NCBI GenBank assembly: GCA_015056925.1
Contig: SVFJ01000016.1
Location: 1 to 49,552, forward strand
DNA: 49,552 nucleotides
DNA from: Lachnospiraceae bacterium
GTDB lineage: Bacteria; Bacillota; Clostridia; Lachnospirales; Lachnospiraceae
Direction: 5' to 3'
Positions 1,931 to 31,859 of this stretch are shown piece after piece (position 1 is the stretch's first letter; every line of letters begins with the position of its first letter). Position numbers and translations under genes: made by a program. A model generated the notes under the pieces. That model saw only the letters and a list, made by a program, of their open reading frames with translations, was not told the origin of the DNA and searched no databases.

Positions 1931-2662
1931 ATGACAGAAAAAACGAATACGGTTATTACGGTAAAAGACCTTTATAAAGTTTATCGAATTGGAGATAACA
2001 AGGTACGGGCTTTAAACGGAGTCAGTTTTACCATTAATAAAGGTGAGTTTTGCGCGATTGTAGGTACGTCCGGTTCCGGTAAGTCTACATTGCTGAATAT
2101 GCTTGCAGGCTTGGAGAAGCCAACGAAGGGCGAAATTATTATTGCAGGCGAACATATGGAGAATAAGACAGAGAATCAGCTGGTTAAGTTTCGGCGTAAG
2201 CATATAGGATTTATTTTTCAATCTTATAATTTAATGGGAACAATGAATGCAGTGGAGAATGTAGCATTGCCGCTGGTATTCCAGGGTGTGCCGAAGAAGG
2301 AGCGTATGAAGCGCGCGCGTAAGATGGTTCATCTGGTGGGTTTGGATAAGCATTGGAAGCATAAGCCGAATCAGATGTCCGGTGGACAGCAGCAAAGAGT
2401 TGGCGTGGCAAGAGCCTTGGTTGTTGAACCTAATATTATTTTTGCGGATGAGCCTACGGGTAATTTGGACTCAGTAACATCAGAGGAGATTATGGCTTTG
2501 ATGCGGAAGGTTGTTGAAGAGAAACAGCAGACCTTAATCATGGTTACACATGATAATCAGCTTGCGGAATATGCTGATAAGATTATCCGAATTAAGGATG
2601 GAAAGATTATTGAGTTAATCGATAAGAAAGCAGCGGCAGAGGCTGAGGCAGTAGAAGGCTGA
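1931..2662 (+). CDS. ABC transporter ATPase, MacB/LolD type
   Basis: A 243-residue ATPase. Walker A is GTSGSGKST (about 44-52), the Q-loop is in FIFQSYNLMG, the signature is MSGGQQQRVGVARAL, and Walker B is IIFADEPTGNLD, followed by the switch His in MVTHDNQ. DEPTGNLD is typical of the LolD/MacB/FtsE branch. It is first in an operon with an exported CARDB-like protein and a MacB-type permease, so it most likely powers a mechanotransmission-type exporter rather than classic import. The substrate is unknown. Confidence 0.93.
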   Translation: MTEKTNTVITVKDLYKVYRIGDNKVRALNGVSFTINKGEFCAIVGTSGSGKSTLLNMLAGLEKPTKGEIIIAGEHMENKTENQLVKFRRKHIGFIFQSYNLMGTMNAVENVALPLVFQGVPKKERMKRARKMVHLVGLDKHWKHKPNQMSGGQQQRVGVARALVVEPNIIFADEPTGNLDSVTSEEIMALMRKVVEEKQQTLIMVTHDNQLAEYADKIIRIKDGKIIELIDKKAAAEAEAVEG

Positions 2663-2698
2663 TATATTTAAGATTACATATATAAGGAGTGGGAGACT

Positions 2699-4375
2699 AT
2701 GAAAAAGAGTTTTAAGAAGTTTAGAAAGGTGCTGGCAATTGCGGCATGTATTACGACTATGCTGATGAACAGTATTATGGTATTGGCGATAGACGATTCT
2801 ACAAGACATCGTGCTAAGGATGAGTTGAATCAGTACTATACTGAGATGAAGTACATTAATGAAATTGATGAAGACATCAAGAAGAAGATGGATAAGGTTT
2901 ATGAGAAGGCAATGACCTTTATGACTGAGGCTGATTTTGATGAGGAGTCAGAGATTCAGGCATATCTTGAGACTGCAAAGGGTAATTTGGACAGACTTTT
3001 ATCTAAGAATCCGAGTGCAGGAAGTACTTCAAACTTTATTATGCTTTCCAATGAAATGCCGGTAATCACGGCAAGCTACGGAGAGGATACATTTGTGGTT
3101 CTTTCTTTGATGAATCTTGGCGTTGCGACAGTACAGGATGTTGTGGTTACACCTGTTGTATCAACAGATGTGAAGGAATATCCTTTTGAGATTAAACAGG
3201 CATATGACGCACAGTATATTGAAGGTATTGCACCGGGCTCTGATTTGGATGATGCGAATGCAAAGCGTATGGATATCGGCTGGATGATGACAGTTAGAGA
3301 GGACGCCTTGACAGGATGCTATCCGCTTCATTTCAATGTGCAATATTATGTTGCAGGTGAGTATGCTTCAACAGAGGTTACTACATATATTAATATTATG
3401 GGAAATGAGAAGAATGGTACTCTTGCAGGGGATAAAGAAGAGGAAGAGAAGCAGTCGAATCCACGTATTATCGTAACAGGCTTCAAGACTGAGCCGGAGA
3501 CTGTATATGCAGGTTCTGTATTCGATTTGACGGTAAGTGTACAGAATACTTCTGCGGAGACTGAGGTTAAGAATGTTCTCTTCCAGTTAGAGGCAGTTGC
3601 AGGTGGTAATGATTCTACATCTACTTCTGCAGTATTTTTACCAACATCAGGCTCTAGTGCTATTTATACAGGTAAGATTGCACCGGGTGAAAGCTATGAT
3701 ATTAAGCTTCAGATGGAAGCTAAGTCTGATTTGGCACAGAAGCCATATGTATTAACTATCAATACAAAGTATGATACAGAGAATGCGATTAATCTTACAG
3801 ATGTGGCAAATGTTTCTATTCCGGTGAAGCAGGAAGCTAAGATGGATGTTGGAACAGCAGAGATTATGCCGGGGTCTATTGCAGTAGGTGAGCAGTCAAA
3901 TGTTATGTTTAGCATCTTTAATACAGGTAAGACTACTCTTTATAATGTAAAGGTTATTTACGAGAGTGAGACTGTTGAAAGCGGTATGACTTATATTGGT
4001 AATCTGGCACCGGGAGCAACAGGTAATGTTGATTCCATGTTAACAGGTATTGCGCCTGATATGGGAGACGGTACAGTGCTTGCAGTGGTTACTTATGAGG
4101 ACGAGGCAGGTAATGAAACACGTTATGAGGTTCCGATAGCACTTCTTGTTTATGAGGATTATATGGAAGAAGAGGTATGGAATGACTATCCGATGGAGGG
4201 TGATATGTCCTATATGGGAGAGGAAGTTCCGGCAGAGTCAGGAAATGCAGGCGTTTTCATAATAGTAGGTATAGTAGCTGTTATTGTAATTATTATCGTT
4301 GTTGTGATTGTTGTTAAGAAGAAAAAGGCAGCAAAGCAGCGTAAGGAAGAGTTAGATTTATTAGATGAAGATTAA
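2699..4375 (+). CDS. Exported, membrane-anchored CARDB/S-layer-like protein of an ABC operon
   Basis: A 558-residue protein with a signal-peptide-like N-terminus (KKSFKKFRKVLAIAACITTMLMN), a long extracytoplasmic part, and a C-terminal membrane helix (about 517-540, IIVGIVAVIVIIIVVVIVV) followed by a basic tail. The middle holds at least two beta-rich repeats of the CARDB/COG1361 kind: one near RIIVTGFKTEPETVYAGSVF and one near MDVGTAEIMPGSIAVGEQS, each followed by a phrase like APGxS/T. Spacing to the ATPase is 36 bases and to the permease 15 bases, so it is part of the same transporter. It probably replaces the membrane-fusion partner found in MacAB systems, an inference from position only. 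Confidence 0.8.
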   Translation: MKKSFKKFRKVLAIAACITTMLMNSIMVLAIDDSTRHRAKDELNQYYTEMKYINEIDEDIKKKMDKVYEKAMTFMTEADFDEESEIQAYLETAKGNLDRLLSKNPSAGSTSNFIMLSNEMPVITASYGEDTFVVLSLMNLGVATVQDVVVTPVVSTDVKEYPFEIKQAYDAQYIEGIAPGSDLDDANAKRMDIGWMMTVREDALTGCYPLHFNVQYYVAGEYASTEVTTYINIMGNEKNGTLAGDKEEEEKQSNPRIIVTGFKTEPETVYAGSVFDLTVSVQNTSAETEVKNVLFQLEAVAGGNDSTSTSAVFLPTSGSSAIYTGKIAPGESYDIKLQMEAKSDLAQKPYVLTINTKYDTENAINLTDVANVSIPVKQEAKMDVGTAEIMPGSIAVGEQSNVMFSIFNTGKTTLYNVKVIYESETVESGMTYIGNLAPGATGNVDSMLTGIAPDMGDGTVLAVVTYEDEAGNETRYEVPIALLVYEDYMEEEVWNDYPMEGDMSYMGEEVPAESGNAGVFIIVGIVAVIVIIIVVVIVVKKKKAAKQRKEELDLLDED

Positions 4376-27756: not shown

Positions 27757-28446
27757 ATGAGTGAATATGATGTAAATCATGATACCTCTGATAAGTATTC
27801 CCTTCGCGGACGTGTATTCCGTAAGGTTAGAGAAGATATTTTAAATGGCAGATATCATGCAAATGATGAGCTTAAGGAGGCTACGATTGGGGAAGAGCTG
27901 GGAGTGAGCAGAACTCCTGTCAGAGAGGCTTTTCGTCAGTTGGAGCTGGAAGGACTGATACATATTGTGCCTAATAAGGGAGCATATGTAACAGGAATCA
28001 CTTCATCCGATGTTGCAGAAATCTACGAGATAAGAGAATTGTTAGAGGGCTTGTGTGCCAGAAGAGCCACAGAGCGAATTACCAAGGAACAGCTCGATGA
28101 GCTGGAAGAGATTATTATGCTGAGTGAGTTTCATTTGGCAAAGGGACATGCAGAGCAGTTGATTGAGTTGGATAATCGTTTTCATCAGCTGTTATATGAT
28201 GCATGTCAGAGCAAGAAGCTTCTTCATTTGTTGAAGGACTTCCATCATTATGTGCAAAGAGAGCGTCAGAAGACACTTTCAGATATGGAGCGAAGCAAGG
28301 AAGCGGTTGCCGAGCATAAGGCAATAGTAGATGCAATTCGTGAGGGAGATGCGGCTAAGGCTGAGAAGCTTGCGGATGCGCATATTTGCAACGCATATAG
28401 AAATATGGTAAAATGCGGTTTGGGTGACCAAACACAGGATAATTAG
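27757..28446 (+). CDS. GntR/FadR-family (FCD) transcriptional regulator
   Basis: A 229-residue regulator. Winged helix at about 15-80 ([20 protein letters not shown], then [20 protein letters not shown]), followed by an all-helical FCD ligand domain ([53 protein letters not shown]). FCD proteins usually bind a carboxylate metabolite; a TCA intermediate such as citrate would fit the neighbours. It sits between citrate synthase and isocitrate dehydrogenase. Confidence 0.9.
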
Positions 28447-28456
28447 GAGGCTTATT

Positions 28457-29662
28457 ATGGAAAAGATTCAGATGACCACTCCACTCGTTGAGATGGATGG
28501 CGACGAGATGACCAGAATTTTATGGAAGATGATTAAGGACGAGTTAATCCTTCCTTACGTTGACTTGAAGTCAGAATATTATGACCTTGGTCTTGAGTAT
28601 CGTAACGAGACAAATGACCAGGTAACAGTTGATTCGGCAGAGGCTACTATGAAGTACGGTGTAGCTGTTAAGTGTGCAACTATCACACCAAACGCTGCAA
28701 GAATGACAGAGTATAACCTTAAGGAGATGTGGAAGAGTCCTAACGGTACAATCAGAGCTATGCTTGACGGTACAGTATTTAGAGCACCAATCATTGTTAA
28801 GGGTATCGAACCATGTGTTAAGAACTGGGAGAAGCCAATCACATTAGCAAGACATGCATATGGTGATGTATATAAGAATACAGAGATTAAGGTTGATAAG
28901 CCGGGTAAGGCTGAGCTTGTATTTACAGCTGAGGACGGAACAGAGGTTAGAGAGTTAATTCATACTTTCAAGGCACCGGGTATCTTACAGGGTATTCATA
29001 ATACAGATGCTTCTATCACAAGCTTTGCACATGCATGCTTTAAGTATGCTTTAGATACAAAACAGGATTTATGGTTTGCTACTAAGGATACCATTTCTAA
29101 GAAGTATGACCATAACTTCAAGGATATCTTCCAGGAGATTTATGATGCTGAGTACGCAGAGCAGTTTAAGGCTGCAGGTATTTCATATTTCTATACATTA
29201 ATCGATGATGCTGTAGCTCGTGTTATGAAGGATAAGGGTGGCTTTATCTGGGCTTGTAAGAACTACGATGGAGATGTTATGAGCGATATGGTAAGTTCTG
29301 CATTCGGTTCACTTGCTATGATGACTTCTGTATTAGTATCACCTTCAGGTGTATATGAGTACGAGGCAGCTCATGGAACAGTTCAGAGACATTACTACAA
29401 GCACTTAAAGGGTGAAGAGACATCTACTAACTCAGTAGCAACTATCTTTGCTTGGACAGGTGCATTAAGAAAGCGTGGAGAGCTTGACAACATCGCGGCG
29501 CTTTGCGAGTTCGCTGATAAGCTTGAGGCAGCTACTGTAAAGACAATCGAAGATGGTAAGATGACAAAGGACCTTGCAGCGATTACTTCTTTGAAGGATG
29601 TAACTGTATTAAACAGTGCAGACTTCATCAAGGCAATCAGAGCAACATACGACGCAATGTAA
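28457..29662 (+). CDS. icd: NADP-dependent isocitrate dehydrogenase
   Basis: A 401-residue enzyme of the dimeric, eukaryote-like NADP-IDH branch. It begins [20 protein letters not shown], has [20 protein letters not shown] for substrate binding, and [20 protein letters not shown] for the metal Asp residues. It converts isocitrate to 2-oxoglutarate with NADPH, most likely for glutamate synthesis in an anaerobe with an incomplete TCA cycle. Aconitase is not in this window. ATG 28457 follows TAGGAGG; an in-frame GTG at 28424 overlaps the GntR gene and is less likely. Confidence 0.95.
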
Positions 29663-29668
29663 TTTAGA

Positions 29669-29700
29669 GGCTGTGCACCTTAGGGGTGCGCAGTCTTTTT
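29669..29700 (+). terminator. Terminator after icd
   Basis: GGCTGTGCACC (29669-29679) pairs with GGTGCGCAGTC (29684-29694) with two wobbles, then TTTTT. It separates icd from the repeat array. Confidence 0.8.
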
Positions 29701-29746: not shown

Positions 29747-30097
29747 ACGGAAAAATTGGAAGGTTGTACCGGATTTTTCCGTACCGAATTCAATTTTATG
29801 AGGTGAATGACGGAAAACACTGGAGTTAGGCTTGAAATTTTCCGTGCCGACTTTTGTTTTATGAGGTGAATGACGGAAAAAACAAGGGATAACCTTTATA
29901 TTTTCCGCCTTGAGTTGTATTTTTGAAGACTCAATACGGAAAAAATAAGTAGTATACTCATATTTTTCCGTAATATGCATATCTCATGGACTATCGAAGA
30001 CGGAAAATGTGAGATATTCCTACTGAATTTTCCGTTTTATCTTTGCGGATACGGAGTATATCACGGAAAAACAAGATTGTTTGCTGATATTTTCCGT
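29747..30097. repeat. Six-unit array of ACGGAAAA...TTTTCCGT inverted-repeat modules
   Basis: Six modules, each opening with ACGGAAAA and closing with its complement TTTTCCGT (TTTTCCGC in the third): 29747-29782, 29810-29845, 29873-29908, 29936-29971, 30000-30035 and 30063-30097. Module length is 36 (35 in the last) and linkers are 27, 27, 27, 28 and 27 bases, so the period is 63-64. The 20-base cores differ; the only column the same in all six is T at core position 10. Linkers 1 and 2 share 16 bases at their right end and linker 3 partly matches them; linkers 4 and 5 do not. No gene fits in the stretch. It lies between the icd terminator and the promoter of the methyltransferase. Confidence 0.93.
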
Positions 30098-30114
30098 AAT
30101 AAACTTTGAAAGAC

Positions 30115-30143
30115 TTGTTTACATAATTGGAAAAAGATATAAT
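30115..30143 (+). promoter_or_regulatory. Promoter of the methyltransferase gene
   Basis: TTGTTT (30115-30120), 17-base spacer, TATAAT (30138-30143), 65 bases before the ATG. It starts just beyond the last repeat module. Confidence 0.55.
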
Positions 30144-30207: not shown

Positions 30208-30966
30208 ATGAAAGATTATAGTATTCAAAATAAAAAAGCATGGGAATATAATGCGTACGATTTCTGGGTAAAAGAAGATGGAAGTCCAGCTGAAAGAGCA
30301 CAAAAGGATAAAGAAAATCCGATAGGGATGTTAAGGAAGTATGCAAATTATTTTGATACATATGAAGGTGTTAGAATTGCGAATATATGTGGTTCATGTG
30401 GTAAGAAAGCTATTCCTTTGGCAATCTTAGGAGCAGATGTCACTGTTTTCGATATTTCAGAGGATAATAAGAGATATGCCCTTGAAGTGGCAGATGCGGC
30501 TAATGTAAGTATTTGCTATGAAGTTGGTGATGTTTTAGAAATTGATAAAAGAAAATATGAAGGATACTTTGACGTGGTTTTCATGGAAGGTGGAGTATTA
30601 CATTATTTTCATGATATAGATGAATTTATGCAGATTATGTATAGTTTGTTAAAGAAGGGTGGAAAAATTATATGCAGTGATTTCCATCCATTTACAAAAA
30701 TATCAGATGCGTTGGGTTTGGAGCAGGCTACAATGAGTTATTTTTCGACAGATGTATTTGAGGGCGAGATGGCCCATGCTCGCTTCTATGTTGAAGAGAT
30801 TAGAAGTCAAATGCCTAAATGTAGTTATAGAAAGTATACGATTAGTGAAATTATTAATGCGATGATTCGATGTGGTTTTGCATTGGAAAGATTTGATGAG
30901 CATCCCGCATGGACGAATCCTAATTTTCCGGGTGAATTTACGGCTGTGGCGTATAAAGGAATGTGA
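30208..30966 (+). CDS. SAM-dependent methyltransferase (class I)
   Basis: A 252-residue methyltransferase. Motif I is an atypical IANICGSCGKKAIPLAILGA, motif II FDISEDNKRYALEVA, then YFDVVFMEGGVLHYFHDIDE and the motif VI-like LLKKGGKIICSDFHPF. The target is not deducible. The ATG follows TTGGAGG. Next to it is a GNAT gene spaced 10 bases away, likely the same transcript. Confidence 0.87.
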   Translation: MKDYSIQNKKAWEYNAYDFWVKEDGSPAERAQKDKENPIGMLRKYANYFDTYEGVRIANICGSCGKKAIPLAILGADVTVFDISEDNKRYALEVADAANVSICYEVGDVLEIDKRKYEGYFDVVFMEGGVLHYFHDIDEFMQIMYSLLKKGGKIICSDFHPFTKISDALGLEQATMSYFSTDVFEGEMAHARFYVEEIRSQMPKCSYRKYTISEIINAMIRCGFALERFDEHPAWTNPNFPGEFTAVAYKGM

Positions 30967-31529: not shown

Positions 31530-31796
31530 CATAGGAAAAGCGAAGACGGAAAAAGTAGTTTATCGGAAGCATCCAGAGAGAAGGACAGATTGGTGGAAGT
31601 CCTTTATGAAAGAAGATAGATGAAAACCATTCCAGAGCTGTAACGCCTAAGATTTTCGGATTGTTAAGTGTTACCGTATGCCTGCGTTAAAGGATAGGAT
31701 TTGATGGAATCTGAAGTGAAAAGTAAGGTGGAACCGTGCAATTATTGCACCCTTTGATAAGCATGAAGAATGCTGTCACGGGGTGCTTTTCTTATG
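31530..31796 (+). promoter_or_regulatory. T-box riboswitch leader (threonine)
   Basis: The T-box sequence AAGGTGGAACCGTG is at 31725-31738, followed by the antiterminator/terminator choice: GCACCC (31747-31752) pairs with GGGTGC (31781-31786) around an inner AGCAT/ATGCT stem, then a T-run. Upstream is the stem I region with GAGAGAAGGA. A likely specifier ACC (Thr) is in AAAACCATTCC near 31628. Uncharged tRNA-Thr would let transcription go on into thrS. Confidence 0.92.
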
Positions 31797-31859
31797 TTAG
31801 AAAATTTTATTAACCTATTGGTTTAGGCATGTAGGAACATGCGAGAAAGGAGCATAAGA

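Follow-up and report, generated by a model that had tools for sequence, protein, structure and literature searches.

Six inverted-repeat modules in a 49,552-nucleotide stretch of a Lachnospiraceae genome (the window, meaning the whole stretch that was analysed) are probably one of several dispersed copies of an array targeted by a single member of a putative PD-(D/E)XK/Vsr-like nuclease family. The cognate gene of this array is likely the one at positions 1210-2001 of another contig of the same assembly (C136), where it lies downstream of another copy of the array. We read the arrays and the family genes together as a two-part repeat/nuclease system, for which we infer binding, cleavage and array spread.

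Structure of the window array

The unit of the window array is ACGGAAAA-N19/20-TTTTCCGT, present in six copies (Table 1) that are separated by linkers of 27, 27, 27, 28 and 27 bp. A recount confirmed the coordinates, arms, module and linker lengths and single changed arm that had been given in a first-pass annotation of this DNA. Eleven of the 12 eight-base arms are exact, and a search for ACGGAAAA-N15-25-TTTTCCGT returned five exact matches in the window against none in any of 100 shuffles. Six of the 19 window copies of CGGAAA and six of the 14 copies of TTTCCG lie inside the array. A lone exact left arm, ACGGAAAA, occurs outside it at 31546, at the start of a T-box leader (31534-31757; Rfam RF00230, 96.7 bits) that stands upstream of an ORF at 31839.

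Table 1. Features of the window array and its surroundings; the left arm of each module begins at the first position given
Feature	Position	Strand	Basis
Six-module inverted-repeat array, period 63-64 bp	29747..30097	.	pattern search
Module 1, 36 bp	29747..29782	.	
Module 2, 36 bp	29810..29845	.	
Module 3, 36 bp, right arm TTTTCCGC at 29901-29908	29873..29908	.	
Module 4, 36 bp	29936..29971	.	
Module 5, 36 bp	30000..30035	.	
Module 6, 35 bp	30063..30097	.	
Left neighbour ORF, 412 aa, outside the system	28424..29662	+	ORF calling
Terminator-like stem-loop, between left neighbour and array	29666..29698	+	
Right neighbour ORF, methyltransferase domain, outside the system	30208..30966	+	Pfam Methyltransf_25

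The cores and most of the linkers have diverged. Core pairs are 15-58% identical; linkers 1 and 2, at 81% identity, still bear the mark of a tandem duplication, and the remaining linker pairs are 15-44% identical. Diverged cores and linkers beside exact arms are the outcome expected if selection acted on the arms and their spacing. The T that the first-pass annotation had noticed at core position 10 is present in six of six window modules and is a majority base only in the wider set from this genome (0.73 at position 12 among 15 distinct 24-base cores).

From its sequence, we take the left neighbour to be an isocitrate dehydrogenase. The earlier observation that no gene adjoins the array holds locally, at the window, but not for its copies, because a gene of the cognate type stands beside another copy on C136; the earlier reader could not see this gene, since it lies outside the window. 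A TTATGTAAAC-like motif was also seen, in either orientation, close to several arrays of this genome (window 30108-30122, L016 and L018).

Copies of the array in the same genome

The search of the genome for paired arms that the first-pass annotation had proposed was carried out on the assembly under study (G000; 3.5 Mb, 183 contigs). We found 25 exact paired-arm modules against none for a reversed control and, allowing at most two mismatches per arm pair or arm, eight tandem arrays with 40 modules in total. These comprise four modules on C36, six on C37 (the window array), five on C74 at the contig end, five on C118, three on C132, five on C133, and two arrays of six on C136. With up to three mismatches, 43 matches with 19-base cores were obtained against 55 in the control, and 68 with 20-base cores against 46; on these counts, single modules outside arrays are not above background. 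The arrays of C118, C74 and both of C136 are homogeneous, which indicates recent tandem duplication.

Wherever arrays were examined by ORF calling, here or in other genomes, they are intergenic. They stand in several gene orientations, including between convergent genes (L090, L091), and their neighbours have no common function. A coding repeat, in which 63 bp would be 21 codons, was rejected because periods of 62 and 64 break the frame (C36, C118, C132, one C136 array and the window). Near an ACGGAA array of C136, we also observed a TwoAYGGAY RNA match (L020, 6709-6840) that is cut by the contig end.

A nuclease-like protein family beside the arrays

One C136 array ends 33 bp before the gene at 1210-2001, whose 264-aa product has a putative PD-(D/E)XK/Vsr-like C-terminal domain and belongs to no Pfam or NCBIfam family. 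Related genes stand beside ACGGAA arrays in other genomes, 49 bp before the array on C34 of a Clostridiales metagenome-assembled genome (MAG; G456) and 96 bp after it on C18 of Pseudobutyrivibrio sp. YE44 (G212). With a profile search of 30 genomes, we detected family members in 21 (2-12 matches each, counting fragments and long frames); the nine genomes without any are all same-genus relatives of G000, of which ten were searched. The profile search also placed members beside ACGGAA arrays in G476 and G483. We took 35 further members with their flanks, namely six of the seven other G000 hits (a 1,122-residue frame was excluded), all other hits of G212, G456 and G589, five of seven from G476, six of 11 from G483, two of eight from G457 and four of eight from G459.

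The two parts of the protein differ in conservation, with a mean pairwise identity of 21% over residues 1-139 and 40% over residues 150-264. No variation was seen at R157-E161, D192, F193, E207, H208, G210 or E244 in any of 31 members. This contrast fits a putative recognition part at the variable N terminus and a putative catalytic part at the fixed C terminus. The PADLOC model PDC-S68 matched the C-terminal domain in all 31 members, and there was no Y1_Tnp among their Pfam hits up to an E-value of 0.1. Weak PHROGs matches, to families of resolvases and endonucleases, were seen in at most 12 of the 31. The best Foldseek E-value was a weak 1.6e-3, obtained with a model of the homologous domain from viral contigs and not of the family itself, and a sequence search of solved structures returned nothing credible.

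Carriage by viruses or plasmids was considered and rejected. Eight viral-contig loci, three of which were inspected individually, match residues 150-264 only, within frames of 747-966 codons, and the matches in four plasmid records are confined to the domain and all stay below 80% coverage. An unverified 4.2-kb faecal 'phage' scaffold encodes a full-length homolog covering 88%, with no clear array, which counts against the proposed pairing.

Paralogs and their words

Family members in G000 and seven further genomes adjoin arrays of alternating inverted words, and the word differs between paralogs. The words and periods found included CCGACTG (53 bp), TTGGTCT (51), GTGGTAC (61-62), TACTATC/TACTACC (52-53), GCAGTAC (52), ACAAGGA (52-54), GACAAGA (54), CATATAA (74) and TCATATG (84-85), together with CTACGGT, a single array of which combines steps of 73, 52 and 63. 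Several arrays end approximately 20-70 bp from the start codon of a family gene.

An upstream array score of at least 11 was reached by 24 of 38 members and by none of 109 control regions. The control set was 110 of 134 eligible upstream regions, 109 of which scored 10 or less; the excluded one (L092, score 13) is, through an overlapping locus, the upstream region of the family gene L140. Adding downstream regions at a score of at least 12 raised the count to 27 of 38, leaving 11 members under both thresholds, and in the lower-scoring members L131, L165, L161 and L100 arrays are visible by eye. When the five members known beforehand to stand beside arrays (L019, L090, L100, L148 and L154) were removed, the count was 23 of 33, including two ortholog pairs. 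In an earlier scoring that allowed low-complexity words, five of 24 shuffled regions reached 11-13, and real control regions are therefore the better guide.

Words go with protein clades: a maximum-likelihood tree of 37 members places the TACGGAA members from four Pseudobutyrivibrio genomes in one starred clade and the three TACTAY members in another. Word and clade are not one to one, because ACGGAA, the word by which the search was made, is common to three separate protein lineages, those of G000 and G456 standing apart.

Spacing and the helical repeat

The idea of phased binding sites, raised in the first-pass annotation, gained support, with the sites remaining putative: same-orientation spacings cluster at whole helical turns in many arrays, and the symmetry of the modules comes without covariation of their halves. 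Among 39 hand-collected spacings from 25 array families, R was 0.79 at 10.6 bp and the mean phase was approximately 0 at 10.5 bp, which none of 20,000 jittered sets matched; this set omits short or irregular spacings (e.g., 83, 92, 93, 70 and 208) and those of L138, L140, L143, L145 and L157. Uncurated successive spacings of 40-110 bp (47 values) gave R 0.48, again best at 10.6 bp, a value equalled by one of 5000 jittered sets. With one mismatch allowed per word (68 values), R was approximately 0.37-0.38, best at 10.3 bp and equalled by three of 5000 sets. Periods of 50, 60 and 71 fit whole turns poorly. Array spacing near whole helical turns is thus supported, not settled. In a deep side branch of the family (L138, L144 and L145, from G456 and G589), array-like words with periods near 60 or 71 lie downstream of the gene.

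Arrays in other genomes and their turnover

Scanning genome contigs with a three-arm pattern returned six stretches, four of which have period-63 modules. Pseudobutyrivibrio sp. YE44 accounts for two of these, and a Lachnospiraceae MAG (L028, genome G455) and the Clostridiales MAG (L029, genome G456) for one each. The remaining two, L024 and L027, have no period-63 array, and the same pattern had no matches in viral contigs. ACGGAA-N22-25-TTCCGT modules numbered 31 in G456, 27 in G212 and three in G455, against 0, 2 and 0 in the respective controls; G589, from the family of G456, has arrays with seven matches against none in controls. Across eight loci of G456, 30 of 30 distinct cores are 24 bases long (a count that omits a single 35-bp module at C37, L092) and 36 of 37 linkers are 27. 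Most arrays of this genome open with a right arm and close with a left arm, and their linkers are palindromic (CCCTTTT...AAAANGG). In G212, larger steps of 75, 84, 96, 159 and 169 also occur.

The distribution of this word is patchy, because the search used one word. By the three-arm pattern, no ACGGAA array was found in any of 37 same-genus relatives of G000. The word was found in five of 29 Pseudobutyrivibrio genomes, in six of 397 family genomes (four of them with a single match) and in four of 115 genomes in the family of G456 (two with a single match). A single common origin of the ACGGAA arrays was rejected, as their partner proteins belong to distinct lineages in G000, in G456 and in Pseudobutyrivibrio. 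In G212, insertion sequences adjoin arrays: L096, L101 and L105 adjoin copies of an identical 332-333-bp stretch with a transposase-like ORF, and L095 and L097 share another stretch of 95 bp.

A second word, TACTAYC, has 7-64 matches in 13 of 29 Pseudobutyrivibrio genomes (controls 0-5) and 0-3 in the other 16. In G460, two homologous arrays with modules in the same order enclose the partner gene, and in G467 array matches flank the gene on both sides. At an orthologous site of G458 and G459 (flanks 96% and 87% identical), one sister has four TACTAYC modules and the other has two, after which the variant word TACTGCC is repeated at length. In L178 of G459 (1945-3000), a TACTAYC array continues as TACTGCC/GGCAGTA at an unchanged period, which looks like a word in the course of change.

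At the mfd site, compared in 13 genomes, TACTAYC arrays are present in two (G458 and G467), and a gene that we take from its sequence to be prsA-like adjoins mfd in the other 11. A clean array gain was not found at this site, where G458 carries two more ORFs with its array; in L176 of this genome (2372-4855), the array lies between mfd and the prsA-like gene, with two ORFs absent there in 11 genomes. In G467, the prsA-like gene was not found in the 3 kb examined, so this is not a clean insertion either. Arrays may sit in turnover hot spots. The suggestion in the first-pass annotation that the modules are mobile elements stands insofar as arrays of one word occupy several loci, some as homologous copies; no clean insertion was found at the mfd site.

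Proposed mechanism and alternatives

A fuller reading, which we offer tentatively, is that the genes and arrays form a selfish two-part element, in which homing-type nucleases each keep and spread their own helix-phased array. The array would serve as recognition site, copying substrate and control switch, and the words would diverge along with the N-terminal part into natural protein-word pairs. In the main reading, which we hold as probable, the variable N-terminal part would most likely recognize the half-site ACGGAAAA. Since half-sites alternate in orientation and those pointing the same way return every six helical turns, putative bound proteins would lie on one face of the DNA and could build a regular assembly along the array. 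The conserved C-terminal domain would most likely nick or cut DNA at or near arrays, and recombination repair of the breaks could let arrays grow or shrink by whole units and copy them to new intergenic places. An array just upstream of the gene would probably let the protein limit its own expression. Half-site binding in alternating orientation and the alignment on one DNA face draw on sequence evidence, and the later steps are extrapolated from REP/RAYT and homing systems.

It is unlikely that the protein is instead a DNA-binding regulator or chromosome organizer, with the arrays as operators or anchoring sites and the nuclease-like domain used for binding only. The position of the C136 array, 33 bp upstream of the gene, is operator-like, as is the closeness of several other arrays to start codons, and whole-turn phasing suits regulators and nucleoid proteins. 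However, the arrays stand in all gene orientations, including the convergent pair at L090 and L091, beside genes without a common function, and all 31 members keep the candidate catalytic residues (E161, D192, E207 and H208) unchanged. Operators bound to promoters only were rejected because of the several gene orientations; when C136 and the window were scanned for promoters, none was detected in the interval from array to gene, and values lay below the shuffle mean.

We regard as quite unlikely a role in defence or self-recognition, in which the nuclease would attack foreign DNA and the genomic arrays would restrain it or mark self. PDC-S68, which points this way in all 31 members, is a candidate defence model, but its match is limited to the C-terminal domain, the helicase part is missing, and no defence cluster was recognized by eye among the genes listed around the arrays.

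Neutral tandem repeats that lie near family genes by chance, with spacing kept only through whole-unit slippage, would explain the homogeneous arrays of C118, C74 and C136 with their recent tandem duplication. Against this decidedly improbable explanation, the window array has diverged cores and linkers beside its 11 exact arms, words pair with protein clades, array scores separate members from controls (24/38 against 0/109), and the same 63-bp period arises from modules of 36 plus linkers of 27 bp in G000 and from 35 plus 28 bp in G212.

The first-pass annotation had also considered a chain of RNA hairpins, which is very improbable. The arms are complementary, and by eye some G212 cores extend the stem; however, left-right pairing fell below that of shuffled partners in seven of seven core and linker sets from three groups (total z -0.4 to -3.3), and only two single positions of approximately 80 had p < 0.05 (G000 core 9 and G000 linker 1). 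Because the halves do not covary, hairpins are not selected, and the symmetry of the arrays is that of a putative binding site, not of a stem. Rfam searches of eight sources at the gathering threshold found only T-box and TwoAYGGAY RNAs, neither on an array. The likening of the array to a CRISPR turned inside out found no support, and a CRISPR-like memory of palindromic repeats with spacers of 18-20 bases has, judged on array structure, a practically negligible chance of being right: cores that vary in sequence but not in length, a regular period near 63 and the repeat-like linker half at both ends of most G456 arrays recall CRISPR, but the linkers differ within arrays (15-81% identical in the window) instead of forming nearly identical direct repeats, related arrays differ by whole tandem units, and homologous arrays keep diverged cores in the same order, which argues for inheritance and not new capture.

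Comparison with known systems

As a two-part repeat/nuclease element, the system is nearest to REP/BIME sequences with their RAYT (TnpA-REP) genes. RAYT genes are described as flanked by their REPs, which are short intergenic repeats, and selection for complementary mutations has been reported in REPs (PMC2817692). The likeness lies in short dispersed repeats of alternating orientation and regular spacing with a gene family alongside, in different gene clades having different repeats, and in the intergenic placement of the repeats (eight G000 loci; TACTAYC in 13 of 29 genomes). Flanking on both sides, a REP/RAYT feature, was seen here in G460 and G467, and usually on one side among the 38 members scored. 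In contrast to RAYTs, the present family has no Y1/HUH transposase match and its domain resembles PD-(D/E)XK/Vsr nucleases; in contrast to REPs, the halves do not covary and the spacing appears to follow whole helical turns.

Homing endonucleases of the EDxHD (Vsr-like) type, such as I-Bth0305I, differ in that no intron or intein was seen here and that the candidate targets, spread over many loci, are arrays of several units. PDC-S68 shares the C-terminal nuclease-like domain, but matches are confined to about 100 residues at the end of profiles that are approximately 1200 long, and the family has a short, fast-changing N-terminal part instead. Searches confined to open-access papers found no account of such a repeat/nuclease pairing. 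We rate the pairing as new: judged from sequence, both the enzyme and the DNA logic appear to differ from those of REP/RAYT, and the genomic logic alone is REP/RAYT-like.

If this reading is true, the family would represent a second, independent solution to the REP/RAYT arrangement, built on another nuclease superfamily and with a DNA logic set by the helical repeat. Its many paralogs with different words would supply natural protein-site combinations from which a recognition code could be read, and the upkeep and spread of bacterial repeat families would become directly testable.
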